The notes below the pieces were generated by a model that ran no database searches, was not told the origin of the DNA, and saw nothing but the letters and a program-made list of their open reading frames with translations. 64,000 nucleotides of DNA from Diphasiastrum complanatum (taxonomy: Eukaryota; Streptophyta; Lycopodiopsida; Lycopodiales; Lycopodiaceae), in contig CM055095.1 in NCBI GenBank assembly GCA_029204225.1, positions 43,176,223 to 43,240,222 of the forward strand, given 5' to 3'. Within the stretch, counting starts at the first letter, position 1; each line of letters starts with the position of its first letter. The translations under genes were made by a program, and so were the position numbers. Shown here one piece after another: positions 4,029 to 64,000 of this stretch.

Positions 4029-4905
4029 GGTTGTGTGCAACCTGCAGATGCTAGACAAATAAATTATGAAATGAATTCTATCATATGTTGGACAATAATT
4101 ATTTAGTCGAAGATCTGAAAATCGACTTTATGACAATCATTTCTTGCATCAAGCATGCACACTATGGAATTAAAATTTCTCCCTACCACCAAGCAACAAC
4201 AATATTCATATCTACAATGTCATGACCAATCCAAAAAAGAATTATAAATGACTTTATCCTCTTGATTGTAAAAAAATGCTTATCAAACTTCAAATATGTG
4301 AACATTCTTATGAAAAAAAAAAAGTCTCACACATTTGAAATACTTTACTAGAAATTGAATGTTTTGACGGATGTTTGTGTAGCTCATCAGATGGAGAATC
4401 TAGTGACGAAGGCATAAATGTCAACAAAGTAAATCAAGATACCATATCCTACAATGATTTTTTCAGGTTAACTATTACCGATTTTTGCAAGAAACAATAT
4501 ACTTACAATTTTTTGTAGGCCAATTATTATCAAGAACGAATGTCATGCACCTGCATCAGATGCGACAGGCAAGTGTTTCGTCAAAGATGCACTGTCAATG
4601 CTCACTTGTGGAAGTATGGAAGAGGAGCGGATGGTCACACATCAAATCCAGAAGAGATTGAGGTTTGCTTTAAAAGCTAACACACTTATGGCATTTATTA
4701 TATTTTTTTAAATACTAGGATATCTAGGTAACCGTTGACTTGTTTAAATGACACATTCTCTGTCAATTTGTTTAGACACACCATCGAATGCCATTACATG
4801 GTCTTGATCCATCCGTATTAAATTCCAAACGAAGAAAAGTCTTGATACAATTGAGGGAACAAAGAATGAAACAAATAGAAGAAGGTGCTAGTGGATTGCT
4901 GCAAC
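3405..4905. repeat. Internal tandem duplication of CACTA-1, unit b
   Basis: Direct repeat of unit a, offset by 1,819 bp on the left and by 1,514 bp to the right of an internal deletion near 4110-4130. It carries the TNP2 5' segment that is continuous with the rest of TNP2. Identity with unit a is high, with scattered point differences, so this duplication is older than the 8.3-kb duplication in which both copies carry it. Confidence 0.8.
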
Positions 4906-7900
4906 ATCTAATGAGGAAGACAGTTGCAGTTGATGATAATGATACTGAGGTACTACACGATGAAGCAATGCATGACTTGTTTCAATCATATTTTACAACC
5001 AACAATGAACGTGCACACTCAACGGGTGGAGAGAACATGGATGAAAGTGAAGAGTTGCATGATGATGAAAATGAAATATTACTACGCAAAAAAGCCGACA
5101 CTCCCTTATAAATGCATTATACTGTTTGTTAGAATTTAGGGTTATGCATTCATTTTTACAAACACAATATTCGTTTTTAGTCTATTACAAAAAATACTTC
5201 CAAAAGACAATGTGATGCCGAGAACGCAAAAATAAGCTCGAAACATGTTGAGCAAGCTTGGAATGGATTACGAAAAGATTCATGGTTGTCCAAGTGACCA
5301 CATTTTATATAGGGGTGTGCATTCAGAGAAAGATCAATGTCCAACGTGTGGCACATCACCATGTAGAACAGTCGTTTAAGGATCGAGTGTGCCACAAAAA
5401 GTGTTACGTCATTTTCCTATCATTCCACGACTGCAACGTTTGTTTTGATGCAGGTCTTTGGCACAACTAGTAGATTGGCATATTAAGAATTGATCTATAG
5501 ATGATGTTATGCGGGTACCAAGTGACTCACCTGCATGGAAACATATTGATGAGCAATGGTCCGAGGTCAAAAATGAACCTCGTCATTTACAATTTGGTTT
5601 AGCACACGTGGCCAGTTGTTCTTGTTAATTATAATAAACGTGGGTGAATCTGTATAGAAACATATAATTGGTGCAAAGGACAGTGTTGCAGCACGTCAAG
5701 ACTTGGAGATGGCTAAGGTGAAGAGACCTTATTGGATTCAAAATGATGAAAGTGGAATGACAAGTACTTCTAGCGTGCCATGGATTCTAAAAGCGGGAGA
5801 GTCTCACATGTAAAAAATGTCATAAGACGAAAAAGAACTCCAACTGGCTATGCACATTCCTTGTGCAGCCATTAGAGGAGTTCTAAATCCAAAAAAGACC
5901 CTTTGTAAAGATACTTTTTATATTTTTTCTCAAATTTTGCTTACACATGGACCAATCAAAACACTCAAATTTGAAATCTACGTAACGTAGCTCATTTAAA
6001 TTAAAAAATGTTTTCTTAATAATGTTATAATTCGGCGCCGGGGGCAGCCCACAAACATGACATGTTATTCATAGTATAATATGCAATTATCATTTAAAAT
6101 AGCATAACTTTTTAACCGTAGCTCTGATTGAGATGAAAATTATATCGTTGGAAAGTGCTCGACGAGAGCTTTCCAATGGTACCTAGGTGACCTACTTTTG
6201 AGCTACCGTTCAAAAGTTATGGCTGACCAAAATTTTAGACCCCAAAAAAAAAAGTCCACATAGCTCTCTCGTGCGCGGATAGAGTACCCTCTCACTGAGA
6301 GGGTACTCTATCCTTGCACAAGAGAGATATGTGGAGTTTTTCTTTTTTTTTTGGTCTGAAACTTTGGCCGGCCATAACTTTTGAATGATAGCTTGGAAGT
6401 AGGCAATGTAGGCACCATTGAAAACCTCTCGTTGAGCACTTTCCAACAGTATAATTTTCGTCTCAATCAGAGCTATGGTTAAAAAGTTATGCTATTTTAA
6501 ATGAACTACAAATGGTAATGTACATAGAATGGTTAAGCATCGAAACTAGTGTGGGAAGAAATGAAAAAAATTTGGGCAGAAAATGAATTTATTTTGGTAA
6601 TTGACATTAATAAACTTTGTCAATCTACGTGGCATTCCTTAAAGAGTCTTTCTTGGATTCAGAATTCTTCTAATGTCTTTCACCAAAGTGGATTAAAATC
6701 TCACGATTGGCTAAAGATGTTGCAATTCATTTTTTCGATTGCTATTCGAGGTTACTTAGGAGACAATCTACAAAGTACTCTGTACAAATTAGCATCAATT
6801 GTCAAGTATCTACAAAACTCATTTGTGACTAGGGACATTAAGATAGACATGACAATACAGAACCAAATGCATCATGTTATTTGTACATTAATATTTTATG
6901 TAATGTTTATCTTGTAGGTGGATCACCTCAAAGGAGATCAAATGGAGTGAATTGCATTCGAAACAACAAGAAATGATTGAAACTATGTGCTTGCTAGAAA
7001 GAGATTTTCTGACTTCTTTCATGGATATACAAGTTTATGTACTTGTGCATTTGGTTGATGAAATTTCCATCGTCGGGCCAGTGCACATTAGATGGATGTT
7101 CTACCTTGAGCATTTTATGAAAGTTCTAAAAGACTTTGTGAGACAAAAGGCAAGGCCATAAGATAGCATCGCAGAAGGTTGGCTTGTTCAAGAATTATTG
7201 TTTTACACCACATAATATTCCTTACAAATACACCCTAGGGCGCCAAAGTTACGGCATACTGAAGAGGACGAGCGCGTCAAAGGTGAATTACATCAAGGAA
7301 AAGGAGTAAGAAAAATGTCTATGTCGTTACGAGAAAAAATTGGCACTTTCATTTTATACAATTGCGAAAGAATGGACACGAAGAAGCCTTGAGACGAAAC
7401 AGGAGAAGGAACAGGATGGTGACTCGCCATTTGCATGAAAATGACGAGCCATTAAACAATGACCTTCTCGATGCGCATGTGAATGGATCTATGATACTCT
7501 TGAAAAAGCAATGGAATATAGTAAACACGTGATAGAACAAGAGTGGGAATTCACTTGCAATTATTCATGGCATGTAAGTAATGTTTTAATTTTAAAAGGG
7601 TAATATAAATTTGTTTATTAAGTTTTTTCTAGCTCAAAGTCCTAAACCCTAGAATGTTCAAGATATGTTGTGCTAAATTTTCAAGATATGTTGTGCCAAT
7701 ACAAAACATACAATGTCATGTGGGCATACGGATATCACTTTCGTGTTGAGGGCATTGACACCAAAAGAAGCACATATGATTGTGGCATAATGGCAAACTT
7801 TCAATAGAAGAGTTGTCTAATGCATGCGACACAAACATCATTTCAGGTGACCTAGGCTATGTCGGCACACTTCAACATATTTATGAGGTCGACTATGGAA

Positions 7901-8446
7901 GTAATGGAAAATACTTGATCTTTGATGTGAAATGTTTCAAAGACTTTTTTGTTCGATCGCTTTGAACACAAATTGTGATCACATTGTGCACTGATTTTAT
8001 TTGTCAATTGTAGATCATACTTCATCCGGATCGATTATCCCCTCAGTGATTATATGTTGTCCAACCCAATACAAGATCACGACATATATTTCAAGACAAA
8101 GATCTTGCATCAAATATGTCAAACGACTTGCACGAGAAATCGGAAATCGATCCAAAACCCTTGATCGAGCAAGAAATCCAAGTTCCATTTGATGCTGAAA
8201 TCATTGAAGAAGAGATCGCAAATGAAAATATGAACGTAGAAAGGAAATCGCCGATGAGAATGCCACGTTTCGATGAAGAATGGCCAGAGGAATAAAGTGA
8301 TGATGAAGATTATCATAACTCTTATACTCATGGGCGAAGAAATTTATGATTGCAATTAGAATTGGATTCAGATGAGTGTATGGACTTAGATAATGACGAG
8401 AATGAGACACTATTTGATGAGCAATGTAATGAGAATATTGACTTAT
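4381..8446 (+). pseudogene. TNP2 transposase of CACTA-1 (Transposase_21), degraded
   Basis: Decayed transposase of a CACTA element. Recognisable segments in order: an N-terminal Transpos_assoc-like domain near 4540-4665 (MSCTCIRCDRQV); an acidic linker 4788-5111 ending in LLRKKADTPLY; the Transposase_21 core from 5262 with MDYEKIHGCPSDHILYRG and CPTCGTSPC, then VPQKVLRHFPIIPRLQRLF and VPSDSPAWKHIDEQW (about 5510-5560). It continues with KDSVAARQDLEMAKVKRP (about 5675) and GLKSHDWLKMLQFIFS (6690-6740). A DUF4218-like part at 6950-7160 has GPVHIRWMFYLEHFM and VRQKARP, and a DUF4216-like part at 7840-7965 has GYVGTLQHIYEVDYG. An acidic tail follows to about 8446. Introns, several frameshifts, a stop after RLQRLF and a foldback insertion at 6091-6503 interrupt it. 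Domain names are from known family patterns. Confidence 0.8.
6091..6503. repeat. Foldback (MITE-like) long inverted repeat inside TNP2
   Basis: Two arms of about 200 bp are imperfect reverse complements. The left arm starts CATTTAAAATAGCATAAC at 6091 and the right arm ends with GTTATGCTATTTTAAATG at 6503. The centre is a perfect 18-bp dyad, 6278-6295 against 6297-6314, around one base. By eye the arms match at roughly 80-85 percent. The element interrupts TNP2 between recognisable coding blocks, so it is probably an inserted foldback element or MITE, although placement in an intron is possible. I could not define a target-site duplication. The same structure is present at 60064-60476. Confidence 0.85.
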
Positions 8447-9708
<1,262 letters not shown>

Positions 9709-9805
9709 TCTCAATTTCTTTTCTCAAAACAAAAAATTGAAACCAAAAATCAAAGTCAACTCATTCTCTGTCTCTTTCATTCTCAATTTCTCTCTCACAA
9801 ATTCA

Positions 9806-10125
9806 ATCACTCACACACACACACACTCTTTAAAATCAAATGTCACAATTTTTTTTACACACACACACTCTCTGTTTCTTTCTATCTAGCTATTTATCTC
9901 TCTCCCTATCTATCTATCTATCTATTTATCTCTTTCTATCTATCTATCAATCTAAAATATGTAAAATCAACTAAATTAATAAATGAAAACCTCCAAAATA
10001 TGAATCTCCAAGCTCCCCAAGCTCCAAGCTCCAAGCTCTGCAAGTTCCCAACTCTCGAAGCTCCCCAAGCTCCAAGCTCCCCAAGCTCTCCAAGCTCCAA
10101 GCTCCTCAACCTCCTCCACTTCCAA
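9806..10125 (+). repeat. Mixed simple repeats: CA, TATC and CAAGCTCC
   Basis: Short (CA)n runs near 9812-9826 and 9858-9871 are followed by TATC-rich sequence at about 9885-9950, then an irregular array of CAAGCTCC-type 7-8-bp units at about 10008-10115. The region lies just inside the subterminal repeats of CACTA-1 and belongs to its 3' non-coding part. The second copy of the window ends inside the CAAGCTCC array. Confidence 0.85.
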
Positions 10126-15745: not shown

Positions 15746-16110
15746 TGACCACAATAACATATCGCGCACATTTCGACGTGGGAAATCTCATAATCTGTCA
15801 CAATCCGACACATTGAAATATGACGTCCCAGTAAAAATCCAAAAACCAGAGTTTGGCGGTTGAGAATATGGGCGGCAAACAATTTTTGAAAGGCACGTCG
15901 AAATCCGACATGTCGGATTATGACATTCAAACGTGGATATCACCTGGCATGGCTTTTCCAAAAAAAAATACGTGTGATCCGATGTGGACATCAGAATCCG
16001 ACGTCCACATCGGCAATCTGAACGCTTGTCCACGGCAACTGGTACCTGTCGTCCAGGCCTGAATGGGCACGGATGTCAGATTCCGATGTGTTTTGAAGTC
16101 TGTTTCATTT
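15745..16110. repeat. CACTA-2 left end and subterminal repeats
   Basis: Motifs such as ATCCGACATGTCGGATTATG (about 15903), AATCCGACGTCCACATCGG (about 15996) and GATGTCAGATTCCGATGTG (about 16073) occur in both orientations. They are the same family as the CACTA-1 subterminal motifs. Further copies lie near 18297-18380 and 18655, so the motif-bearing zone is split by the microsatellite block. Confidence 0.7.
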
Positions 16111-16573
16111 TTTGTATTCGCGCGATCCAGCGCCTTCTCTCTCACTCTGATTTTTTGCATGTTAAAACATCTCTGGAGCAATTGAGGGTGCTTGAAGATC
16201 AGTGTTTGAGGTTGGGGCTTGTTTGTTTAGCTTTTTGTTTGTTTGTTTGAGGTTGGTGTTTGCTTGTTTGTTTTGAGAAGAGATAGAGAGTGTGAAAGAT
16301 AGAAAGAGATAGAGAGTGTGTGTGTATTATATGTGTATGTGTTTTTAAATTTTGCATTGATTTAAAATGGTTTTGAATATTGTTAGTATGAATATGGTTT
16401 TGAATGGTCTTGTAATAAATTATTAGTATTATTTAGGATAGTTTGGTAATAATATATTATTAGATTTGTAATTTGTGAGAGAGAAAGAGAGAGAAGAGGT
16501 GGAGTGTAGATGTATGCTTGAAGATATTGAAAGATTTTGGAGTTTATGTTTTGTTCTTTTTTTGAAAGATAAA

Positions 16574-16578
<5 letters not shown>

Positions 16579-16617
<39 letters not shown>

Positions 16618-16990
16618 ATATAATAGATTGTGATAGTGTTTATAATAGATTGATTTTTTACAGTGTTTATAATACATTGTTAGAATTATTTAGGATAGTG
16701 TATGTGTGTGCTTGAGAGGATGTGTATGTGTTTTGAATTTTGCATTGACCTATAATTTAGGTTAATAGACAAATAGATATAGATAGTGTTGGGTAGTAAT
16801 AGATTGTTAAATTTATAATCTGTGTGTGAGAGAGAGAGGAAAAAAAAAAAGAAGAAGAAAAAAAATAGAAGATGTGTGTGTGTGTTCAACGTTTTGCATT
16901 GATTTAGAATTTAAGATTATAGATAAATACATAGTCTATGGTGGTAATAGATTGTTAGATTTATATTTATTTAGTACTAAGAATGATACA

Positions 16991-17064
<74 letters not shown>

Positions 17065-17439
17065 TGTGTGTGTGTGTTTTGTATTATGCATTAGTTTAGG
17101 GTTTTTAAGAGTGATAGATAAATAAATAGTGTTTGATAGAAAAGTATAAATATTGTTTATAAAAAATTGTTAGAATTATTTAAGATAGTGTATGTGTGTG
17201 TTTGAGAGGATGTGTATGTGTTTTGAATTTTGCATTGATCTATAATTTAGTTTATTCGACAAATAGATATAGATAGTGTTGGGTAGTAATAGATTGTTAA
17301 AATTATAATGTGTGAGAGAGAGAAAAAAAAAAAAAAAAAAAAGAGAAGATGTGTGTGTGTGTGTTTAACATTTTGCATTGATTTAGAATTTAAGATTATA
17401 GATTGTTAGATTTATATTTATTTAGGACTAAGAATGACA

Positions 17440-17502
<63 letters not shown>

Positions 17503-17556
17503 GGGAACATGTTTAGCAGTTTACATTGTTTTAAGATGAGAGAGAGAGAGAGAGAG

Positions 17557-17607
<51 letters not shown>

Positions 17608-17761
17608 TTTGATTAAGATTTAGAGTAGTAGGTGAATAGATTGTGTGTGTGTGTGTGTGTTTAAGTTTAACATTTTGCATTTTATTTAAAATTTAAGATG
17701 AGAGAGAGAGGGGTGGGAGGGAGGAAGTGTGTATGTGTTGTGTTTTGCATTTTGAATTTAA

Positions 17762-17808
<47 letters not shown>

Positions 17809-17905
17809 GTGTGTGTGTGTGTTTTGTATTATGCATTAGTTTAGGGTATTTAAGAGTGATAGATAAATAAATAGTGTTTGATAGAAAATTTATATTAGAT
17901 TTATA

Positions 17906-17983
<78 letters not shown>

Positions 17984-18010
17984 GTGTGTGTGTGTCTGTG
18001 TGTGAGTGTG
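16579..18010 (+). repeat. Compound (GA)n/(GT)n microsatellite block in tandem units
   Basis: GA tracts occur at about 16581-16615, 16993-17062, 17442-17497, 17768-17803 and 17941-17980. GT tracts occur at about 17561-17606, 17641-17660 and 17908-17940. The unique sequence between them also repeats: the phrase GGATGTGTATGTGTTTTGAA occurs at about 16719 and 17209, and ATTATGCATTAGTTTAGGG at about 17084 and 17825. The block is therefore a tandem array of units of about 0.48-0.75 kb, each carrying its own GA/GT tracts. Confidence 0.85.
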
Positions 18011-18897
18011 TGTTTTGATTAAGATTTAGAGTAGTAGATGACTAGATAGTGTTTGATGGTAATTGTATGTTTGAATTTACTTATAATAATGGTTCAAGTG
18101 TGTAATACAGTGTTATTTTTTAAATGATTCTGCATGTGACAAAAATATTCAAAAAAAAGAGAGCAAGCGTTTAAAAAGCGAGCAATTGCACGTTTGCATT
18201 TAAGCTTTGAGTGAGTTTCCGGTGAGTTTGTGTTGTTTCAATTTGTTTTATTATTGGAATACGTTATCTAACATAGTAAAAAATCCTACATGTAACATGT
18301 CGACATCTATGAAAAGGAAGTCTCCGACGTCTATCCAACGTCTGTCTGACACGTTTTAATGTCGGATTCTGACGTCCCAAATTAGGTAAAATAAAAAAAA
18401 ATTATTCTTGGAGTTGGATTCTTGGAAAAGCGATGTTCATGAATTGTTTTTGAAACAATATTTTTGAGTTGCATTCAACATTTGGATCAAACAACAACCT
18501 AAGCATGAGGTACTTTTCATTCTGAAATTACTTTTCATTCTATATTTTATTGCATTACTTCATGTCTATTATGAATGACAATACTTTATTGCATTGCTTT
18601 ATGCACATCATAAATTTCATTTAGATTTCTATATATGATATTGATTGTTGTTTTGAAATCCGACATTGCACATGGTTTTAAATTCTTAGTTGGTTATTAC
18701 GTCAATCCACATCTCAAAATTCGATATTGCAATTTTTAAAAAAACAACATTGCACATATAAAAGCAATGGCAATATAGCACGATCATTTGCAATAATAAT
18801 ATATTCATAATATCAATCAATGTATTACAAAATTGCTGCTTTAATGTCACATGAGTCTTTTTAGATCTAACATTAACTAAAATTTATAAACCTAATC

Positions 18898-28974: not shown

Positions 28975-30734
<1,760 letters not shown>

Positions 30735-35410: not shown

Positions 35411-35928
35411 TGGTAGTGATTCCTACTTTGTAGGATCTAGACCATGATTTATGATGAGATTTGTACCTACCATGCACCTACCAAGCGTGACTCTTGGATC
35501 TAGGCTAGGAATTTCACATTAGGGCAAGAAAGTGGAGTCCACTTCCTTATTACATGCTGGATTTTCACCTAACTTTGCAAAGGAAGTGTGTTTTACTATG
35601 TATTCCCATTCTCCATAGTGAGAAGATAGAAACTTTTTGGAGCCTCAAGGAGAAACTCGAGTTTCCTCTCATTGTATGGTGATTACTCTATTTTTCCAAT
35701 GAAACCCAGCTTTGGCACTTTGTAAACACTGTCTACAGGCCGTACTACAGCCTTATTTCTACACGTGTGGAGTTGTGCTTTGATTGTCTCTACTTGTTTC
35801 CTATCTAGCTGCTAAACTAGATCTTGTTTTCTGATGACTAGTTTCTGATAGATTGTTTAACAAGCATACAATCACCTTGTGGATCATTCAAAGATCCATT
35901 AATGGTCCTTAGTACTGTACTTTTCACA
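35411..35928 (+). repeat. 5' LTR of Copia-3, missing its first 154 bp
   Basis: Matches 40718-41254 from TGGTAGTGATTCC to TTTTCACA, with few differences. The LTR part equivalent to 40564-40717 (from TGTGAAAAATTGCC) is absent and replaced by unrelated sequence. It contains ACACGTGT at 35761-35768. The missing piece may have held upstream promoter sequence. Confidence 0.88.
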
Positions 35929-35940
35929 TGGTATCAGAGC
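35929..35940 (+). other. Primer-binding site of Copia-3
   Basis: TGGTATCAGAGC directly follows the LTR end TTTTCACA. The sequence continues CAAGTACAAGG into the leader. Confidence 0.9.
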
Positions 35941-36320
35941 CAAGTACAAGGCCATTGATCTGTGTTTGAATCTAATCCAGTTTTAGCAAGTTTTGGTGCA
36001 AAAAGCTAGTATTGGAAGGGCGAGCTGGTATCCAGGTTTTGGTGAGGAAATTTGATCCCAAACTTTTTCAGGATCAAAATCCGTATTGTTCACACGTGTG
36101 GGCATCTCTGAACCAGCATTTAATAACCCATATTCATCGGATCATAGAAAATTCATCTGGTGTCAATTTGATGTAATTTTTGGTGCAAATCCTAGGATAA
36201 GCTACCAAGATCACTTGCCATTGATTAGTTTTGAATTTGTTTCATGAAAACTAATTAATCTAGGCTGATTTCAGACCTTCTTAAAGTGAAAACCAGTTCT
36301 TGAAAGTACATCAAAGTGAA

Positions 36321-36323
<3 letters not shown>

Positions 36324-36360
<37 letters not shown>
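36324..36360 (+). repeat. (GA)n microsatellite in the Copia-3 leader
   Basis: A pure tract of about 18 units between the primer-binding site and the gag start. The leader also has CACACGTGTG at 36091-36100. Confidence 0.95.
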
Positions 36361-36364
<4 letters not shown>

Positions 36365-36585
36365 TTTTTGTCCAAGAATAGCCAAGATTGGCAAGATTTG
36401 CTTGAGTGTAGTTTTCATCTCATCTTATCTCCATTCCAGCTTGTGAGGGAGTGATAGAACTATGATTACAAATCCATTTGTTGGATTAGAAGTCAACATT
36501 TGAGTGAAACACTGCAAGTTAGAAACCTTTGTGAGTTTCAGGTACAAACAAATCTATATCTTGTGTGTAGAATCTTGCTAGTAAG

Positions 36586-39500
36586 ATGGGATCAACGGGA
36601 GCCTACCTTCTAGAAGCTAGTGGGAGGTTAAATTCTACCAATTATGCTATTTGAAAAGTGAGGATGGAGTCACTAATGGTGCTCCAAGATCTTTATGAGT
36701 TTCTAATAGATGATGAAGATGAACCTCTAGGTGCACAGGAATTAGTGAGATACAAGAAGAGGTCTAGGCTTGCACTTCACTGTATTAAGATAAATGTAAG
36801 CAATGATCTTTTAAGGGAAGTATCATCATGTAAGAGTGCTAAAGAGGCTTGGGAATCTTTAAAATCTATCTATGAGTCTAGTAACACTTCGAGGGTTCTC
36901 ATGCTTAGGAATCAGATTCTACAAAGCATGAAGAGGAGTGATGAGAGTGCACAAGATTATGTGCTAAGAATCAAGTCTCTTAATAGGGAGTTAGCTTCCA
37001 TTGGAGAGAAGATTCAAGATAGTGAGCTTGTTCAGATTTTCCTAAATGGTCTAGGGAGTGGCTTTACAAATTTGGTCCAAAGCTTTGCAATCCAAGACAC
37101 TTTGCCTACTATAGAAAAGCTACACAGTGTATTAGTAGCTGAAGAGTGTAGGATGTTGCATATCAATGCAAGAATGAATGCTATTTCTTTGCAGGATGGT
37201 GATGAGAAAGCTAATTTCTCATTCAAAAGCAAGAAGAAGACCAATGGCAAGAAGAATCACTTCAAGGAGACCAAGGAGGAGGATGAGGCTTCAAGCTCAA
37301 AGGGCAAGATCAAAGACAAGTCCAAGTCCAAATGTTTTTTCAGTGGAAAGAAAGGACATTTTGCATCAAAATGTCTCAAGAAGAAGAAGGCACAAGAGAG
37401 CAAACAAAGCAACATTGCACATCAGGAGGAAGAGGAGGATGAAGAGTCATCCTTGATGGTTTCCAACAAACCACCATCATCCAAGAGCAACACCAATGAT
37501 TCTTGGTGGATTGATAGTGGGGCAAGTTCCCACATGACATATCAAAAGGACATATTCTCCACCTTACTTTCTTACAATGACTTACATAGATCAATCTATA
37601 CTGCAAGTAGTCAAGAATGTAAGATAAGTGGAATAGGAACAATTCCCTTGTATGTGGGATCATCCAAAAGGATGAATCTAGATAATGCTCTTTATGTTCC
37701 TAAGTTAACCAAGAATTTGCTTAGTGTTGGCCAGTTAATGGATAATGGCCTAGATGTACAATTTAAGCATGGAGTTTGTTCCATTCTTTGAAATGATGAA
37801 TGTATAGCCAAAGGCTTTAAGCAAGGTAGATTGTTTAAGCTTGATGCTAATGTTGTAGTGGAGAGTGTTAACTTGGCTGGAGTTATCAAAGGTGGAACTG
37901 TGGCACAAAAGGTTGGGCCACCCCAACTACAAAGCCATGAAATCTATGGCTACAAAGGAGCTTGTAATTGGACTCCCCAAGCATTTGTCAAAGTGTGGGA
38001 AGAGATGTGAAGCATGCAGCCTCTCAAAGGCTCACAAACTACCCTTCTCAAGATCTACATCAAGATCAAACTCTCCTCTTGAACTCATCCATTCGGATGT
38101 TCATAGTTTTTCACATGAGCCTAATGGTAGTGCCAAGTACTATGTAATCTTCATTGATGACTATTCTAGATTTTGTTGGATGTACCTCTTGTCTAGCAAA
38201 TCAATGGTGTTTGATTCTTTTGTAAAGTTCAAGACTTTGGTAGAAAATCAACTTAGTACCAAGATTAAGGTATTAAGGAGTGATAATGGAGGTGAATATA
38301 TCTCCAATAAGTTGATTGACTTTTGTAGTTCTAATGGCATAAAGAGGGAGTTGTCATGTCCATACACCCCTCAACAAAATGGAGTGAGTGAGAGAAGAAA
38401 TAGATCTCTTTCTGAGTGTGCTAAGGCCTTAAGGCTAGATGCTTCTCTATCCAAACCATTTTGGGGTGAAGCAATAACTTGTGCTAACTATTTGTGCAAT
38501 AGATTGCCAAACCAAGCCATTGGAGGAATCACACCATTTGAAGCTCTATTTGGAGAGAAGCCCAATCTCAAAGATCTCAAAGTTTTTGGATCCACTTGCT
38601 ATGTACACCAATCCTTGGATAAGAGAAGGAAGGATGATGCAACATCCATCAAAGGCATCTTTGTGGGATATGGTGAGAATAGCAAAGCTTATAGAGTCTT
38701 CAATCCCATCACTAGCAAGGTGATAGTGAGTAGGGATGTTATTTTTTATGAAGGACATGCTTGTGAGTTGGATGATAATGCTACTAATCATCTTGATGCC
38801 AAGGATCATGCTAGGATGGAGGAGGAGCTTCCAAGTGAAGAAGAACTTGAGGATCCACCTCAAGATGCAAGAACTCCAAGAACTCCAAGAAGTTCTGCAA
38901 GGGCAAGATCCGAGCCGTTGAGGCTCACCTATGATGGTCAAGGTGATCAAAGGGAAGGCTCATCATCTTTCACATCTTACACCTTTCTTACTTCAATGTT
39001 AGATGAGCCAACATGCTATGAAGATGCTTGTAAGTCTAAAAGTTGGATGGATGCTATGCAAGTAGAGTTTGATGCTCTTATTGAGAATCATACTTGGGAT
39101 CTTGTGGATCTTCCTCAAGGGAAGAAACCTCTTGATTGCAAGGGGGTGTTTAGATTGAAGTATAATCAAGATGGATCAATAAGCAAGCATAAAGCTAGGC
39201 TTGTTGCCAAAGGTTTTTTACAAATCAAAGGCATTGACTATGATGAGACTTTTGCTCCTGTGGCTAAGCTTGTTACTATCAGGTTGATCATTAGTCTTGC
39301 TACAACCTTCAATTGGGAGCTATTCCAACTTGACTTCACAAATGCATTCCTCAATGGTTATTTGGAGGAAGAGATCTACATGAGGCAACCCGAGGGCTTC
39401 ATCAAGGCAAAGCATGAAGGAAAGGTGTGTTTTTTGAAGAAGAGCCTTTATGGGCTCAAGCAAGCACCTAGAGCATGATACTCTAGGCTAAACTCTTTTC

Positions 39501-40560
39501 TCATTTCCATCAATTTTGTAATGAGTGCCTATGATCCATCATTGTATATAAGTTTTCATGATGGCATGATCATTATTCTTGTTTTGTATGTAGATGACAT
39601 TATCTTGAGTGGTAATGATCTAGATGGAATTAGAGATGTAAAAATTGCTTTAGCAAAAGAGTTTAAGATGGTAGATCTCGGCCTATTGAGCTTCATTCTT
39701 GGAATAGAGGTTATTAGAGGATGTGATTTTAGCTTCATTTGTCAATCTAAATATGCTACATCCATCCTAGATAGATTTGGAATGAAGAATTGTAAAGGCA
39801 TTGAGACACCAATGGAGCAACATGTAAAAGCATCTATTGGTTGTGATGAAGCATCCTTTGAGGACATCACATTATATAGAAGGCTTATTGGCTCCTTGAT
39901 CTATTTAACTATGACTAGACCTGATCTTAGTTATAGTGTTGGAAAGTTAAGCCAATTCATGCAAAGTCCTCTAGTTTCACATTGGAAGATGGCCAAAAGA
40001 GTTCTTAGATACATTTCATTCACTAAGAATTTTGGTATTTTGTATAGAGGAACTAATCTTTGCTTAAGAGCCTATAGTGACTCGGATTTTGCAGGTGACA
40101 AAGTGGATAGAAGATCAACAAGTGCCTTTGCCACCTTTCTATGTGATGAAGTAGTATCATGGCTTTCTAAAAAGCAAGATACCATCTCCCTATCTTCCAC
40201 AGAATCCGAATACAAGGCCTTGACATCAACATGCAAGGAGGTCTTGTGGCTCAAAAGGCTATTGGTGGAGCTTCATGTCATGGAGGAGGAGATTCCTATC
40301 ATCTATTGTGACAACCAATCAGCCCAATCACTTGCAACTAATCCTACATTCCATGCAAGGAGCAAACACATCGAAATTGCTCATCTTTCGTGAGGGAAAA
40401 AGTGTAAGCTAAAGAGATCAAGCTCCAACATCTGCCATCATCAAGTTGCTTGGCTGATTTGTTTACTAAACCTTTACCTAAAGATTCATTTGTCAAGCTT
40501 AGATCTTCAATTGGAGTTATTGATAAAAGCATTGTGATCTCCAAGGCTAGATTTGAGGAG
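36586..40560 (+). pseudogene. Copia-3 gag-pol polyprotein, broken by stops and frameshifts
   Basis: ATG at 36586 begins MGSTGAYLLEAS. Gag continues to a zinc knuckle near 37333 (CFFSGKKGHFASKC, with the second Cys changed to Ser). The protease motif is DSGASSHMTY (37514). Integrase has its HHCC zinc region (WHKRLGH, CEAC), D at HSDVHSF, D at RSDNGGEY and E at NGVSERRNR. RT has ETFAPVAKLVTIR, FQLDFTNAFLNG, KKSLYGLKQAPRA and catalytic LYVDDIILSGND (39580). RNase H has YSDSDFAGD, STESEYKAL and CDNQSAQSLA. Breaks: TGA at 36652 and at 39476, both where a tryptophan is expected; TGA at 37789; a frameshift near 37860-37900; and a frameshift near 40385 before the C-terminal LADLFTKPLPKDSF. All catalytic residues survive otherwise. 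Confidence 0.92.
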
Positions 40561-40563
40561 GAG
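40552..40563 (+). other. Polypurine tract of Copia-3
   Basis: TTTGAGGAGGAG abuts the 3' LTR start TGTGAAAAATTGCC. It is the same as the Copia-2 tract and also codes the last FEEE residues of the polyprotein frame. Confidence 0.8.
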
Positions 40564-41254
40564 TGTGAAAAATTGCCTACATTGGCAAATCTAGCCATGT
40601 AGAATATTGTACATTTTGTCAATATTGTTTGTTGGTTACTTGAATGGCCAAAGTGCCACTTGTACATACACACCTAAAGTAGGTTACCACGAGTCAAGAG
40701 GAGTGGTTGTGTCTATATGGTAGTGATTCCTACTTTGTAGGATCTAGACCATGATTTATGATGAGATTTGTACCTACCATGCACCTACCAAGCATAACTC
40801 TTGGATCTAGGCTAGGGTTTTCACATTAGGGCAAGAAAGTGGAGTCTACTTCCTTATTACATGCTGGATTTTCACCTAACTTTGCAAAGGAAGTGTGTTT
40901 TACTATGTATTCCCATTCTCCATAGTGAGAAAATAGAAACTTTTTGGAGCCTCAAGGAGAAACTCGAGTTTCCTCTCATTGTATGGTGATTACTCTATTT
41001 TTCCAATGAAACCCAGCTTTGGCACTTTGTAAACACTGTCTACAGGCCGTACTACAGCCTTATTTCCACACGTGTGGAGTTGGATTATACTAATTGATCA
41101 ATATTTTGATTGTCTCTACTTGTTTCCTATCAAGCTGCTAAACTAGATCTTGTTTTCTGATGACTAGTTTCTGATAGATTGTTTAACAAGCATACAATCA
41201 CCTTGTGGATCATTCAAAGATCCATTTATGGTCCTTAGTACTGTACTTTTCACA
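40564..41254 (+). repeat. 3' LTR of Copia-3
   Basis: A complete 691-bp LTR, TGTGAAAAATTGCC to TTTTCACA. It contains CACACGTGTG at 41067-41076. The inverted terminal word TGTGAAAA/TTTTCACA is shared with Copia-1. The palindrome array begins within about 30 bp of its end. Confidence 0.92.
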
Positions 41255-41277
41255 AATCATAACTAAAAATTCAACAC

Positions 41278-41850
41278 ATTTTCTTACTAAAACATCTCAA
41301 AAGTTTCACTTTTCTTAGACTAAGCCTTGTAAAATGAGAAAAATATGAGTAACGACCTATGTTGAGCATAGGTTATGTTGAGGTCCTGAGTAACAACCTA
41401 TGCTCAGCATAAGATGTCAGCATGATGTGTCTATTCTTATCACCTATCGACCTATGCTGAGCATAGGTTGCATCTCTAGTTCTCTTCTAACCTATGCTAA
41501 GCATAGGTTAGCAAGCAGCATGCGAAGACATCCTATGTTGAGCATAGGTGGGACTCGAGCACGCGAGTGACAACCTATGTTGAGCATAGGTTAGAAGAGG
41601 ACTAGAGAGACAACCTATGCTCGGCATAGGTTGAAACGTGGTAAGAATAGAAATATCCCGCCGGCTTCCTATGTTGAGCATAGGTTTTTACTTAGGACCC
41701 GAACACAGCCTATGCTCAGCATAGGTTAGAGGAGAGGACTCGTGTAGCCACCTATGCTGAGCATATGTCACCCAAGTTTTAAGAAGAAGAACACTAGCTA
41801 AAACCTTAATATTTAGTAATGCAATAATTTAGTACCCATGCTAAGCATAG
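41278..41850. repeat. Mirror-symmetric array of eleven 17-bp palindromes
   Basis: The palindrome CCTATGCTNAGCATAGG (with C/T at the seventh base) starts at 41356, 41397, 41451, 41491, 41532, 41574, 41614, 41668, 41709, 41751 and 41835. The last two and the second are imperfect. Spacings are 41, 54, 40, 41, 42, 40, 54, 41, 42 and 84 bp. Outward from the fifth copy (centre 41540) they read 41, 40, 54, 41 to the left and 42, 40, 54, 41 to the right. The spacers are also reverse complements across this centre (for example TCTATTCTTA near 41430 against TAAGAATAG near 41642), so the block is one large inverted repeat built of small ones. There is no coding potential. It may be a foldback transposon, a hairpin-RNA source or a protein-binding array. 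I do not recognise the family. Confidence 0.9.
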
Positions 41851-42281
41851 AACAAAGTTAAAAAATGACAATAATCTTACCATCAAGAAATGTGTGAGCG
41901 AGAACGTATGCAATATACTTTAAAAATCCGTGACTTTGTCATAGCAAGAGCTCTGGCAACATGTATGCTTCTGAATTCGTAGATGAGGTGAGTTATGCTT
42001 GGACTACGGTCCATAGATATTTTTTTTTTCAGACCCTTGCCTCACGCCGATTTGGAGCATGAGACTCAACTCACTTCTTGCCGACCTCGAGCTTGCGTCG
42101 GGACCGTGTTGTCGTGACTCACCTCACCTCACCTCACGCCGACCTCGAGCGCACTCGGATCTGATACTCGGTTTTCTGATATCTCTTTCGAGCGCATAGG
42201 ACGTTGTAGTCTTGTTTGAACTTGCATGTTGCGCCTGAGTCCAATATTCAAATTTTTTCTTTCTGTATTTTTTTTGTTGAA
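41851..42281. other. No gene; locally GC-rich with a small repeat
   Basis: No coding sequence is recognised. At about 42040-42170 the base composition rises sharply against the AT-rich surroundings. CTCACGCCGA and GCCGACCTCGAGC each occur twice, and CACCT is repeated in ACTCACCTCACCTCACC. The role is unknown. Confidence 0.5.
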
Positions 42282-55696: not shown

Positions 55697-56188
55697 CCAG
55701 GCAGGTTTTGACTTGCCTGTCCAAAGTGTGCCCCGCACAACATTCCTCTTACGCCGAATCCATTTGCTCATATCTTTTGATATGGCTCCTGGATCGAACT
55801 CATTTTCTTGCTGGAATTCTTCCCGCAACTCCTACATAATCTTGGATTTTGATTCTCCAGGTTGATCACACCCTTTTTTAAAAAGTCTTGTTCCAAAATA
55901 ATGAGAACATAACAAATGCAACTTATTAATAAAGTGGTCCCTTTCTCATCCCTCACTACATCCCCATCGACAGTTAAATTGTAGTGAGGGTTGGAGGATG
56001 ATTCATCTGTGGCAGCGGGTGGAGATGAAGGGCCTGTTGTGGCGCCTTCTTATGTGTTAAAAGCATTTGCCTAATAGCCACCCTTTGTTCTGGCGACATG
56101 GTACCAATCAAGCTAGCGGTGTAATCTTCATATACAGACCTAGATCGACGTCGTCCGCTACCACCGCCACTTCCACTTCCACTCATGA
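55697..56188 (-). pseudogene. TNPA-like gene, truncated second copy
   Basis: Exon 1 and the 5' part of exon 2 of the TNPA-like gene, identical in sequence to copy 1 apart from rare differences. Exon 2 is cut at the duplication junction just after the GKSKPAW-encoding sequence, and exons 3-4 are absent. It keeps the TAG stop seen in copy 1 (here 55832-55834). Confidence 0.65.
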
Positions 56189-57378
56189 TTGTGTGCAACC
56201 TGCAGATGCTGAACAGACAAATAAATCATGAAATGAATTCTATCATATGTTGGACAATAATTATTTAGTCGAAGATCTGAAAATTGACAAATTCACATCA
56301 TGAAAAGATTGTGAACCCAACAATATAAGGACTAACTTAAAACTTTCAAACACTCCAAGCTTGAAACAATGGGACAAAAAACTTGAATAATGTAATGGTA
56401 TTGAATAACTTCCACTAACAACATTCTCTCCATGAAATAAGAACCAATTACATTCTGCTTTGCAAATATGTCATAACTTGTCCAATGCATACTATCAACA
56501 ATCAATCACACCACCATCACCACTTGACCAAATTCCTCAAGACAACTAGCTATCCACAAAAGAAATCTTTGTTGTTAATCTACTCCTTTATGACAATCAT
56601 TTCTTGCATCAAGCATGCACACTATGGAACTAAAATTTCTCCCTACCACCAAGCAACAACAATATTCATATCTACAATGTCATGACCAATCCAAAAAAGA
56701 ATTACAAATGACTTTATCCTCTTGATTGTAAAAAAATGCTTATCAAACTTCAAATATGTGAACATTCTTATGAAAAAAAAAAGTCTCGCACATTTGAAAT
56801 ACTTTACTAGAAATTGAATGTTTTGACAGATGTTTGTGTAGCTCATCAGACGGAGAATCTAGTGATGAAGGCATAAATGTCAACAAAGTAAATCAATATA
56901 CCATATCCTACAATGATTTTTTCAAGTTAACTATTACCGATTTTTGCAAGAAACAACGTACTTACAATTTTTTGTAGGCCAATTATTATCAAGAATGAAT
57001 GTCGTGAACCTGCGTCAGATGCGACAGGCAAGTGTTCTGTCAAAGATGCATTGTCAATGCTCACTTGTGGAAGTATGGAAGAGGAGCGGATGGTCACACA
57101 TCAAATCCAGAAGAGATTGAGGTTTGCTTTAAAAGCTAACACACTTATGGCATTTATTATATTTTTTTAAATACTAGGATATCTAGGTAACCGTTGACTT
57201 GTTTAAATGACACATTCTCTATCGATTTGTTTAGACACACCATCGAATGCCATTACATGGTCTTGATCCATCCGTATTAAATTCCAAATGAAGAAAAATC
57301 TTGATACAAATGAGAAAACAAAGAATGAAAAAAATAGAAGAAGGCGCTAGTGGATTGCCACTAGATCCTAACTTAGAT

Positions 57379-58002
57379 CCTACCTTTCCACTAGATCCTA
57401 ACTTAGGATTCTCCATGCCAGGGGTAATCCTACTCACTGCAACCTCCTTCTGCAAGCGATATTTTTCTAGATCTTTGGCCTCATCCTTGTAGGCCTTCCA
57501 ATCTGGCTTGGAACACCAGGCAGGTTTTGATTTGCCTGTCCAAAGTGTGCCCCGTACGACATTCCTCTTACGTCAAATCCATTTGCTCATATCTTTTGAT
57601 ATGGCTCCTGGATCGAACTCATTTTCTTGCGGGAATTCTTCCCGCAACTCCTAAATAATCCTGGATTTTGATTCTCCAGGTTGATCACACCCTTTTTTAA
57701 AAAGTCTTGTTCCAAAATAATGATAACATAACAAATTATCAATAATGTAACTTATTAATAAAGTGGTCTCTTTCTCATCCCCCACTACATCCCCATCGGC
57801 AGTTAAATTGTAGTGAGGGTTGGAGGATGATTCATCTGTGGCAGCGGGTGGAGATGAAGGCCTTCTGCGGCACCTTCTTCTGTGTTAAAAGCATTTGCCT
57901 AATAGCCACCCTTTGTTCGGGCGACATGGTACCAATCAAGCTAGCGGTGTAATCTTCATATACAGACCTAGATCGATGTCGTCTGCTTCCACTTCCACTC
58001 AT
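57379..58002 (-). pseudogene. TNPA-like remnant of unit b, second copy
   Basis: Counterpart of 3405-4028. It differs by one C-to-T change (57984) that turns a glycine codon into arginine in the MSGSGSG-type start. The internal stop is retained. Confidence 0.7.
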
Positions 58003-58354
58003 GGTTGTGTGCAACCTGCAGATGCTAGACAAATAAATTATGAAATGAATTCTATCATATGTTGGACAATAATTATTTAGTCGAAGATCTGAAAATCGAC
58101 TTTATGACAATCATTTCTTGCATCAAGCATGCACACTATGGAATTAAAATTTCTCCCTACCACCAAGCAACAACAATATTCATATCTACAATGTCATGAC
58201 CAATCCAAAAAAGAATTATAAATGACTTTATCCTCTTGATTGTAAAAAAATGCTTATCAAACTTCAAATATGTGAACATTCTTATGAAAAAAAAAAAGTC
58301 TCACACATTTGAAATACTTTACTAGAAATTGAATGTTTTGACGGATGTTTGTGT

Positions 58355-61300
58355 AGCTCATCAGATGGAGAATCTAGTGACGAAGGCATAAATGTCAACA
58401 AAGTAAATCAAGATACCATATCCTACAATGATTTTTTCAGGTTAACTATTACCGATTTTTGCAAGAAACAATATACTTACAATTTTTTGTAGGCCAATTA
58501 TTATCAAGAACGAATGTCATGCACCTGCATCAGATGCGACAGGCAAGTGTTTCGTCAAAGATGCACTGTCAATGCTCACTTGTGGAAGTATGGAAGAGGA
58601 GCGGATGGTCACACATCAAATCCAGAAGAGATTGAGGTTTGCTTTAAAAGCTAACACACTTATGGCATTTATTATATTTTTTTAAATACTAGGATATCTA
58701 GGTAACCGTTGACTTGTTTAAATGACACATTCTCTGTCAATTTGTTTAGACACACCATCGAATGCCATTACATGGTCTTGATCCATCCGTATTAAATTCC
58801 AAACGAAGAAAAGTCTTGATACAATTGAGGGAACAAAGAATGAAACAAATAGAAGAAGGTGCTAGTGGATTGCTGCAACATCTAATGAGGAAGACAGTTG
58901 CAGTTGATGATAATGATACTGAGGTACTACACGATGAAGCAATGCATGACTTGTTTCAATCATATTTTACAACCAACAATGAACGTGCACACTCAACGGG
59001 TGGAGAGAACATGGATGAAAGTGAAGAGTTGCATGATGATGAAAATGAAATATTACTACGCAAAAAAGCCGACACTCCCTTATAAATGCATTATACTGTT
59101 TGTTAGAATTTAGGGTTATGCATTCATTTTTACAAACACAATATTCGTTTTTAGTCTATTACAAAAAATACTTCCAAAAGACAATGTGATGCCGAGAACG
59201 CAAAAATAAGCTCGAAACATGTTGAGCAAGCTTGGAATGGATTACGAAAAGATTCATGGTTGTCCAAGTGACCACATTTTATATAGGGGTGTGCATTCAG
59301 AGAAAGATCAATGTCCAACGTGTGGCACATCACCATGTAGAACAGTCGTTTAAGGATCGAGTGTGCCACAAAAAGTGTTACGTCATTTTCCTATCATTCC
59401 ACGACTGCAACGTTTGTTTTGATGCAGGTCTTTGGCACAACTAGTAGATTGGCATATTAAGAATTGATCTATAGATGATGTTATGCGGGTACCAAGTGAC
59501 TCACCTGCATGGAAACATATTGATGAGCAATGGTCCGAGGTCAAAAATGAACCTCGTCATTTACAATTTGGTTTAGCACACGTGGCCAGTTGTTCTTGTT
59601 AATTATAATAAACGTGGGTGAATGTGTATAGAAACATATAATTGGTGCAAAGGACAGTGTTGCAGCACGTCAAGACTTGGAGATGGCTAAGGTGAAGAGA
59701 CCTTATTGGATTCAAAATGATGAAAGTGGAATGACAAGTACTTCTAGCGTGCCATGGATTCTAAAAGCGGGAGAGTCTCACATGTAAAAAATGTCATAAG
59801 ACGAAAAAGAACTCCAACTGGCTATGCACATTCCTTGTGCAGCCATTAGAGGAGTTCTAAATCCAAAAAAGACCCTTTGTAAAGATACTTTTTATATTTT
59901 TTCTCAAATTTTGCTTACACATGGACCAATCAAAACACTCAAATTTGAAATCTACGTAACGTAGCTCATTTAAATTAAAAAATGTTTTCTTAATAATGTT
60001 ATAATTCGCGCCGGGGGCAGCCCACAAACATGACATGTTATTCATAGTATAATATGCAATTATCATTTAAAATAGCATAACTTTTTAACCGTAGCTCTGA
60101 TTGAGATGAAAATTATATCGTTGGAAAGTGCTCGACGAGAGCTTTCCAATGGTACCTAGGTGACCTACTTTTGACCTACCGTTCAAAAGTTATGGCTAAC
60201 CAAAATTTTAGACCCCAAAAAAAAAAGTCCACATAGCTCTCTCGTGCGCGGATAGAGTACCCTCTCACTGAGAGGGTACTCTATCCTTGCACAAGAGAGA
60301 TATGTGGAGTTTTTCTTTTTTTTTTGGTCTGAAACTTTGGCCGGCCATAACTTTTGAATGATAGCTTGGAAGTAGGCAATGTAGGCACCATTGAAAACCT
60401 CTCGTTGAGCACTTTCCAACAGTATAATTTTCGTCTCAATCAGAGCTATGGTTAAAAAGTTATGCTATTTTAAATGAACTACAAATGGTAATGTACATAG
60501 AATGGTTAAGCATCGAAACTAGTGTGGGAAGAAATGAAAAAAATTTGGGCAGAAAATGAATTTATTTTGGTAATTGACATTAATAAACTTTGTCAATCTA
60601 CGTGGCATTCCTTAAAGAGTCTTTCTTGGATTCAGAATTCTTCTAATGTCTTTCACCAAAGTGGATTAAAATCTCACGATTGGCTAAAGATGTTGCAATT
60701 CATTTTTTCGATTGCTATTCGAGGTTACTTAGGAGACAATCTACAAAGTACTCTGTACAAATTAGCATCAATTGTCAAGTATCTACAAAACTCATTTGTG
60801 ACTAGGGACATTAAGATAGACATGACAATACAGAACCAAATGCATCATGTTATTTGTACATTAATATTTTATGTAATGTTTATCTTGTAGGTGGATCACC
60901 TCAAAGGAGATCAAATGGAGTGAATTGCATTCGAAACAACAAGAAATGATTGAAACTATGTGCTTGCTAGAAAGAGATTTTCTGACTTCTTTCATGGATA
61001 TACAAGTTTATGTACTTGTGCATTTGGTTGATGAAATTTCCATCGTCGGGCCAGTGCACATTAGATGGATGTTCTACCTTGAGCATTTTATGAAAGTTCT
61101 AAAAGACTTTGTGAGACAAAAGGCAAGGCCATAAGATAGCATCGCAGAAGGTTGGCTTGTTCAAGAATTATTGTTTTACACCACATAATATTCCTTACAA
61201 ATACACCCTAGGGCGCCAAAGTTACGGCATACTGAAGAGGACGAGCGCGTCAAAGGTGAATTACATCAAGGAAAAGGAGTAAGAAAAATGTCTATGTCGT

Positions 61301-62419
61301 TACGAGAAAAAATTGGCACTTTCATTTTATACAATTGCGAAAGAATGGACACGAAGAAGCCTTGAGACGAAACAGGAGAAGGAACAGGATGGTGACTCGC
61401 CATTTGCATGAAAATGACGAGCCATTAAACAATGACCTTCTCGATGCGCATGTGAATGGATCTATGATACTCTTGAAAAAGCAATGGAATATAGTAAACA
61501 CGTGATAGAACAAGAGTGGGAATTCACTTGCAATTATTCATGGCATGTAAGTAATGTTTTAATTTTAAAAGGGTAATATAAATTTGTTTATTAAGTTTTT
61601 TCTAGCTCAAAGTCCTAAACCCTAGAATGTTCAAGATATGTTGTGCTAAATTTTCAAGATATGTTGTGCCAATACAAAACATACAATGTCATGTGGGCAT
61701 ACGGATATCACTTTCGTGTTGAGGGCATTGACACCAAAAGAAGCACATATGATTGTGGCATAATGGCAAACTTTCAATAGAAGAGTTGTCTAATGCATGC
61801 GACACAAACATCATTTCAGGTGACCTAGGCTATGTCGGCACACTTCAACATATTTATGAGGTCGACTATGGAAGTAATGGAAAATACTTGATCTTTGATG
61901 TGAAATGTTTCAAAGACTTTTTTGTTCGATCGCTTTGAACACAAATTGTGATCACATTGTGCACTGATTTTATTTGTCAATTGTAGATCATACTTCATCC
62001 GGATCGATTATCCCCTCAGTGATTATATGTTGTCCAACCCAATACAAGATCACGACATATATTTCAAGACAAAGATCTTGCATCAAATATGTCAAACGAC
62101 TTGCACGAGAAATCGGAAATCGATCCAAAACCCTTGATCGAGCAAGAAATCCAAGTTCCATTTGATGCTGAAATCATTGAAGAAGAGATCGCAAATGAAA
62201 ATATGAACGTAGAAAGGAAATCGCCGATGAGAATGCCACGTTTCGATGAAGAATGGCCAGAGGAATAAAGTGATGATGAAGATTATCATAACTCTTATAC
62301 TCATGGGCGAAGAAATTTATGATTGCAATTAGAATTGGATTCAGATGAGTGTATGGACTTAGATAATGACGAGAATGAGACACTATTTGATGAGCAATGT
62401 AATGAGAATATTGACTTAT
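58355..62419 (+). pseudogene. TNP2 transposase, second copy
   Basis: Counterpart of 4381-8446 with the same breaks. The Transpos_assoc-like domain is near 58514-58640, MDYEKIHGCPSDHILYRG begins near 59236, the DUF4218-like part is at 60925-61134 and the DUF4216-like part at 61813-61938. The shared stops show that the gene was already dead before the duplication, so neither copy supplies transposase. Confidence 0.8.
60064..60476. repeat. Foldback inverted repeat, second copy
   Basis: Counterpart of 6091-6503, with the same perfect 18-bp central dyad (60251-60268 against 60270-60287) and two single-base differences in the left arm (60175 and 60198). The foldback therefore predates the duplication. 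Confidence 0.85.
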
Positions 62420-63565
62420 AATATTGACTCACAATTTAAATGTTATTGCAAAGACTGCTTGCACTAGTATCACAAAGATTGTATGCACACTATTGGCATG
62501 ACCTCAAGTTTCAAGTATGTACTATGGACCTAAGTTGCACCCCCTTCTGGAATGCTGTGTTCCAATCGCGTTCTAGACCGCTACGTTCCGGAACGGATTC
62601 GGGTCCAGAAAGCTGCGTTGTAGAATGTAAGGGTCATGCGTTGGATTGTGTTCAAATTTTACTGAATGTTAGTCGATGGGTTGTGGACCCGAACAAACCC
62701 ATAAAGCTGTTTTCTAGACAGATAAGAGGAATAGCACATAATATATTTTGATGGACTTGGATATGATATTAGGGTTTTCTCACTCCTACACTGAACCAAA
62801 TTAAACCTTATTAGCCTCAATCAAACCTCATTAGCCTCACCAATTAATAAGAGTTACCAATGATGATTTAATAAGAGTTACCAATTAATAAGAGTTACCC
62901 TCAAATCTCTCTTTCTTTCACTCTTCATATCTCTATTACCAATGAGGATTGTGAGGAGAGAAGGAGTTTTCAATTGAGGAGCAAATGAGCTAATGAGCGA
63001 TTTTCAAAAGGAGGCGCTATCATCATTGTTGATTGTGAAAAGCATATAGGGTGCTAGCTAAGGAGTAGAGTAGATGAGGTTATGCAGGTTTTCAAGACAA
63101 ACAAACACATGCAAGGTGCATTGACCCCTTAAGTATTGCGAAGAAATTGAGCATGAAACTTCAACCACGTATGATTAAGTGAACTTGAGGACTTAGGAGA
63201 TTGTGACATACCTTTTTAGCTATATATACCAACACATCCCTTAAACTACTGCATGAATCAAAATGGACCTCCATGGCTTACTATGAACATATGTTAGTCT
63301 ACAAAGACTAGGACCTATGGCTTTGATATTTGATGATCGTAGATATGAGACGATGCTACTTGTAAAATTAGTTCAATAATAGACAAAGGATTGACACCCG
63401 AATGTATTTGTGAATGATATATCTCAATGACCCCTTAAATCCGTGATCTTACTTTTATGCTTATTAATATAAGATGAAAGCCTATATCATCTTTACGGAC
63501 ATACCCTATAATATCAAAGATGGAGATGTTATATTGAACCCAAGAACCGAAACCCATGTTTTCTT

Positions 63566-63569
<4 letters not shown>

Positions 63570-63656
<87 letters not shown>
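63570..63656 (+). repeat. (CT)n microsatellite, about 43 units
   Basis: Counterpart of 9597-9705, but 22 bp shorter. It is followed by the CA, TATC and CAAGCTCC repeats, in which the window ends. Confidence 0.97.
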
Positions 63657-63659
<3 letters not shown>

Positions 63660-64000
63660 TCTCAATTTCTTTTCTCAAAACAAAAAATTGAAACCAAAAA
63701 TCAAAGTCAACTCATTCTCTGTCTCTTTCATTCTCAATTTCTCTCTCACAAATTCAATCACTCACACACACACACACTCTTTAAAATCAAATGTCACAAT
63801 TTTTTTTACACACACACACTCTCTGTTTCTTTCTATCTAGCTATTTATCTCTCTCCCTATCTATCTATCTATCTATTTATCTCTTTCTATCTATCTATCA
63901 ATCTAAAATATGTAAAATCAACTAAATTAATAAATGAAAACCTCCAAAATATGAATCTCCAAGCTCCCCAAGCTCCAAGCTCCAAGCTCTGCAAGTTCCC

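Follow-up and report, generated by a model that had tools for sequence, protein, structure and literature searches.

A high-copy DNA transposon of Diphasiastrum complanatum with an ordered palindrome array between its divergent genes

Clusters of short sites for the DNA-binding protein of an element are known from parS, which is bound by ParB, and from the subterminal repeats of CACTA and Mu-like transposons. According to the available text on the Sola superfamily, these transposons make 4-bp target duplications, their terminal inverted repeats (TIRs) are 11–1124 bp long, and their size is mostly 2–9 kb (PMC10741241). In the Ectocarpus transposon Sola1-1_Ec32, a ParB-methyltransferase gene is located on the strand that does not code for the transposase. 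The authors of that study proposed that proteins of this kind may bind the transposon that encodes them and modify it epigenetically (PMC12477816). The same paper reports that self-binding and self-methylation have also been proposed for ParB-methyltransferase proteins encoded by transposons of green and red algae (PMC12477816). Besides PMC12477816, no other description of a ParB-methyltransferase transposon was found in the full-text literature searched.

The DNA transposon described here resembles Sola1-1_Ec32 in that a methyltransferase (N4C or N6A) accessory gene is located opposite to the probable transposase gene (PMC12477816). As the Ectocarpus Sola1 element has an opposite-strand ParB-methyltransferase gene, the gene pair is of a known kind (PMC12477816). 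The two elements differ in host, a brown alga and a plant, and in size, 21.5 kb there and 7.4–9.4 kb here. The ParB part is annotated in the algal protein, whereas here a likeness to ParB is seen by eye only, and the available text of PMC12477816 mentions no palindromic array. In our element such an array is intergenic, unlike the subterminal repeats of CACTA and Mu-like transposons, and its likeness to these repeats and to parS is one of arrangement. No description of an ordered palindrome array between such genes was found in the full-text literature, a scope outside which preprints and most subscription papers fall.

In the 64-kb stretch of DNA analysed (the window), 11 sites of the 17-bp palindrome CCTATG(C/T)TNA(G/A)CATAGG and its variants form an unstranded array at 41356–41851. 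The sites start at 41356, 41397, 41451, 41491, 41532, 41574, 41614, 41668, 41709, 41751 and 41835; all of these starts had been given in the original prediction, and every one is exact. Three sites are perfect palindromes, seven have one mismatch and one has two. By chance 0.14 sites are expected, and 11 were reached in none of 100 shuffles; a chance origin of the array is thus ruled out. No further site was found in the 64 kb at up to three mismatches. The successive spacings are 41, 54, 40, 41, 42, 40, 54, 41, 42 and 84 bp. Sites 1–9 with their spacers form a large inverted repeat of 372 bp (41355–41726, unstranded), a feature absent from the original prediction. Its 155-nt arms (41355–41509 and 41572–41726) are 83% complementary and enclose a 62-nt centre. 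As the array is an inverted repeat, the spacings in the window are not independent of each other. The DNA of 41330–41870, folded as a single strand, gave z = −18.3 against shuffles.

The exact motif is present in 2141 copies in the 1.74-Gb genome, and the reversed-pattern control gave none. Genome-wide, 1011 motif pairs are spaced at 39–43 bp, 178 at 53–55 bp, 76 at 26–30 bp and four at 45–49 bp. Since copies related by descent are included in these counts, they represent a preserved arrangement and not independent events. Recurrence of the motif elsewhere in the genome, at a preferred spacing, was observed; its absence had been named in the original prediction as speaking against a functional array. 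The commonest full array has 12 sites with gaps of 41, 54, 40, 41, 42, 41, 40, 54, 41, 42 and 84 bp. It was found exactly in four of the 23 arrays compared, and many of the others match it in part, with small insertions or deletions, cut ends (some of them at the edge of the stretch compared) and units lost or gained. The window array has one unit fewer than the 12-site form. This ordered spacing is shared by copies that are located on separate contigs. Among the loci examined, no cluster has more than 13 sites; the clusters are dispersed over many contigs and form no long head-to-tail tandem blocks. The satellite-like reading offered in the original prediction is thus unsupported and was rejected.

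Several copies of the array region are closely similar to that of the window. Two of them, at C3:56393575 and C3:56457863, match the window without a difference (100%) over 841 bp, and another eight at C4:42350920–42970262, within about 0.6 Mb, are 91–95% identical. According to these copies, segmental duplication may have contributed to the spread of the stretch, in addition to transposition. At another locus (L014), two arrays with transposon parts are present in equal orientation at 2478–2944 and 6184–6640, about 3.7 kb apart, and the second copy starts near 4642, in mid-element sequence.

The sites are better conserved than the sequences between them. In 16 aligned arrays, the agreement was 0.919 in the motif columns versus 0.802 in the spacers. 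As this set includes copies found via the motif, 10 copies found via gene A (below), and hence independently of the motif, were compared separately, and the agreement was 0.910 in the motif columns versus 0.781 in the spacers. In these 10 copies, none of the 413 circular shifts of the motif mask equalled the true mask. One locus (L036), a near duplicate of L035, was excluded from both comparisons. The central base is the most variable position of the motif (agreement 0.64), as expected for a dyad site.

The identical palindrome is also present in clusters whose spacers are unrelated to those of the array and whose sites are mostly 26–32 bp apart. Denser clusters of this kind are present in other repeats (L005:2017–2359, L008:1841–2634 and L010:2030–2163, with many gaps of 26–32 bp), where the palindrome partly alternates with ACTTATGCTNAGCATAAGT versions. 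A palindrome shared by clusters with unrelated spacers argues for a common binder, either of the host or of the element. One such cluster is located about 1 kb from a carotenoid-dioxygenase-like ORF of the host, of which the nearest solved structure is a chloroplastic 9-cis-epoxycarotenoid dioxygenase (E = 8.8e-22). On account of this location, the binder may be a host protein. If the element has a partition-like operator (below), the other repeats that carry the palindrome may parasitize this system.

The original prediction also placed all the sites on one face of the DNA helix. The usual 12-site array of the family was tested at 10.5 bp per turn against random arrays of mirror symmetry. Clustering was seen for the spacings (p about 0.01) but not for the positions of the sites (p = 0.12). 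With this period the position coherence is 0.43 for the family array and 0.59 for the window, and a high coherence (R = 0.87 and 0.89, respectively) was reached only at 10.4 bp per turn, a period chosen post hoc. In the motif cluster L005, comparable position coherence was not seen. Helical phasing is suggestive only and weakly supported.

The array is part of a larger mobile element. Similarity between copies extends far past the array, and a MITE or foldback element ending at the ends of the array is thus ruled out. Searches of the genome with the element ends were evaluated on the best 40 of 1094 candidates for the left end and the best 40 of 1405 for the right end, and three copies were compared contiguously. 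Both junctions were seen in six copies, whose terminal repeats are imperfect and 11 bp long and whose target duplications are 4 bp long; as the flanks are A+T-rich, the junction borders were placed by eye. At the left end the sequence is AACATGATGAC, except for one copy with AACATGATGAT, where the last base is T. At the right end it is GTCATCGTGTT, with GTCATCGTATT in one copy and GTCATCGTGTC in another; read inward, it is AACACGATGAC, and 10 of the 11 bases match the left end as inverted repeats. The target duplications are perfect in five of the six copies (TTAA, TTAT, AACT, TAAA and TAAA) and show one mismatch in the sixth (CGAT/TGAT). Copies with target-site duplications, named in the original prediction as support for an element, are thereby established. 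Five copies span 7.4–9.4 kb and the sixth 2.7 kb, which is presumably a deletion derivative. Terminal inverted repeats and a target duplication of fixed length, the marks of a cut-and-paste DNA transposon, are found in all six. The 4-bp duplication is that of the Sola superfamily, although other superfamilies make such duplications too, and the imperfect TIR of about 11 bp and the 7.4–9.4 kb of the five copies agree with the Sola ranges. Judged by the sequence of its ends and flanks, the host of the array is a dispersed, high-copy DNA transposon with terminal repeats and target duplications.

Gene A of the transposon is read leftward, and its product matches the Pfam family N6_N4_Mtase (PF01555, E = 1.8e-12). 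Among solved structures, the methyltransferase part is matched by the RsrI (5e-6) and MboIIA (1.3e-4) methylases. RsrI and MboIIA are bacterial restriction-modification enzymes, and the match of these N6-adenine methylases to the C-terminal methyltransferase region of gene A covers 55–59 residues only. A piece upstream of the methyltransferase part contains DIPY, in agreement with a catalytic consensus. The order of the catalytic motif followed by the SAM motif suggests that the gene A product is a class-beta enzyme. A conserved stretch precedes the methyltransferase; in the genome, the best 150 of 2206 candidates for it all have E ≤ 1.4e-72. By hand count, 32 of the 150 best gene A matches are stop-free and 118 contain a stop codon.

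The N-terminal stretch of gene A looks ParB-like by eye only. Pfam gave nothing above the cut-off (the best hits below it were the unrelated TAF2_3rd, E = 0.0032, and Mei4, E = 0.071), PHROGs and NCBIfam gave no family, and the best of the PDB profiles was an unrelated protein (E = 0.82). In an hhalign comparison with 22 bacterial ParB proteins (of 23 matches), of low power at an effective diversity of 1.1, the match did not exceed that of the reversed control. No relatives of the ParB-like part were found in viral contigs, and a first scan of genome contigs gave no relatives of the methyltransferase part. The methyltransferase part matched one viral locus and four phage records (31–50% identity over 29–56% of the query), and its 54-aa core matched 46 bacterial and 13 viral loci. 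ORFs were tabulated for 56 loci, namely all 46 bacterial loci, nine of the 13 viral loci and the single viral locus of the longer query. Among the tabulated ORFs longer than 370 aa, whose starts were read by eye without an HMM, no ParB fusion was noticed.

Gene B is read rightward, divergent from gene A, and contains DUF7869 (E = 4.7e-21); it is probably the transposase gene. In the genome, the best 150 of 2953 candidates for DUF7869 are all above the cut-off, and no mention of DUF7869 by name was found in the full-text literature searched. In the complete transposon copy that was scanned (9145 bp), the match covers the first 86 of the 192 profile positions only and is followed by a repeat that is also present at 29905–30328 of the window. 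According to this partial match and the repeat after it, gene B of the complete copy looks interrupted. None of the 12 top DUF7869 loci has a palindrome cluster within 3.6 kb, and several other families of DUF7869 elements are therefore probably present in the genome.

The order of the parts, obtained from separate searches, is left end, gene A, array, DUF7869 and right end. The lists compared consist of the best 40 or the best 150 matches, with all 150 DUF7869 matches used, so that the pair counts are lower bounds. At least 12 pairs of left end and gene A were found, all on opposite strands and 2.9–3.1 kb apart. Gene A and DUF7869 are within 10 kb of each other in at least 12 pairs, versus 0.26 expected; nine of the 12 are divergent at 1.8–4.4 kb, and three are on the same strand at 5.7–9.3 kb. 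The N6/N4 methyltransferase domain is thus opposite in strand to DUF7869 in nine of 12 pairs, which is the Sola1-1_Ec32 arrangement if DUF7869 is the transposase. The array is paired with gene A at least four times, and with DUF7869 at least twice, at 2.4 kb. The left end is paired with DUF7869 at least five times, at 6.3–7.4 kb, and for at least 11 of the best 40 right-end matches one of the gene A matches compared is located on the opposite strand, at a distance of no more than 10 kb. Taken as sequence, these pairs place the array in the region between the two divergent genes of the element.

The sites were located at up to three mismatches in the complete copy: three at 2073–2226, twelve at 4547–5083 and two at 5547–5633. 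Upstream of gene A, about 230 bp separate its start from the beginning of the 12-site array, and the start of gene B is 31 bp past the last of the two weak sites (both starts as read). A second, incomplete copy has the first two groups of sites alike, and one of the last two sites.

The window holds only a remnant of this transposon, the between-gene part at 41255–42150 (unstranded); in fuller copies gene A is located to its left and gene B to its right. The two L014 copies align to 41254–42144 and 41254–42150 of the window, at 83% and 75%, and two other copies are 77–80% identical, up to 42149. Using the window fragment as the query, the best 40 of 565 candidates in the genome match, and the query end at 42160 leaves the right border unplaced. 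Read from these alignments, about 0.9 kb of the element survives in the window as a dead fragment that lacks both genes. It is directly adjoined on the left by a copia-type LTR retrotransposon on the plus strand (35411–41254), of which the LTRs (35411–35928 and 40718–41254) are 94% identical. The retrotransposon has copia gag, integrase and RVT_2 domains (Pfam), and its LTR ends and tRNA primer site were read by eye. No target duplication was seen by eye, the 5-bp flanks TTTTT and AATCA being unlike, and window-wide comparisons found no transposon sequence to the left of the retrotransposon. The array is not part of the LTR retrotransposon, because it is outside the LTR and gene A occupies that place in fuller copies.

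Other features of the window and the genome were observed. The segments 1723–10049 and 55697–64000 of the window are 8.3-kb direct copies, 99.6% identical and 54 kb apart; they reflect either segmental duplication in the recent past or a duplicate in the assembly. At 16203–18077 one strand is strongly G-rich (GC skew 0.735 over 16001–18000), and GA/TG dinucleotide runs are numerous there, as are imperfect repeats. Elsewhere in the genome, a radial-spoke gene is present in four pieces (PF04712, best E = 2.8e-34) on contig C20 near 46.07 Mb. Taken by themselves, this gene and the ORF resembling a chloroplastic dioxygenase point to a host plant whose sperm swim, probably a land plant without seeds and less probably a charophyte alga.

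With respect to function, the original prediction named a binding array for a dimeric protein, for example a transposase, in a mobile element. The first part fits the results, as the motif recurs, is conserved over its spacers and is located inside a transposon. A transposase as the binder is not favoured, because in the complete copy examined the sites are between and within the genes, the nearest of them 2.1 and 3.5 kb from the termini. We consider it somewhat probable that the palindromes are an operator on which a dimeric protein encoded by the element would dock. The most likely candidate for this protein is the product of gene A, and it would bind the array cooperatively. The bound protein would then methylate and/or regulate the two promoters of the element itself; as a result the expression of the transposase would be tuned, and the element would be marked or protected. 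We put forward more tentatively a partition-like operator, in which the dyad array would recruit the bacterial-type methyltransferase, and a private 6mA/4mC mark would switch or shield expression.

The operator reading was weighed against three others. An array for a host transcription factor at a promoter or enhancer, which the transposon would exploit and the proteins of the element would not bind, is unlikely. The location between two divergent genes would suit it, as would the palindrome in clusters with unrelated spacers, one of them beside the carotenoid-dioxygenase-like ORF; dense 12-site palindrome arrays, however, would be unusual for a host factor. It is quite improbable that the palindromes are transposase sites that pair the ends, in the manner of CACTA or Mu-like subterminal repeats. 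Such sites would likewise be element-associated, multi-copy, palindromic and conserved, but in the single complete copy that was scanned no site is closer than 2.1 kb to the left end or 3.5 kb to the right, unlike subterminal transposase-binding repeats, and the six junctions, compared by eye, have only the terminal repeat of about 11 bp in common, not a palindrome. Very improbable is a foldback that yields a hairpin RNA or small RNAs, or an inverted duplication with slippage that has no binding function. The 372-bp inverted repeat with its very stable fold, and the units gained and lost between copies, are in line with a foldback. A foldback should nevertheless be conserved over the whole arm, whereas the 17-bp sites exceed the spacers in conservation and the arms in the window are only 83% complementary; moreover, further sites are located outside the inverted repeat.

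The idea that algal transposon proteins bind their own element had been put forward with no target sites named in the available text (PMC12477816), and the array is a concrete, high-copy candidate for such a target. As a conserved 17-bp palindrome is present in an ordered array between the genes, the self-marking idea becomes directly testable. The family would also be a case of a bacterial-type DNA methyltransferase carried by an abundant mobile element of a plant.
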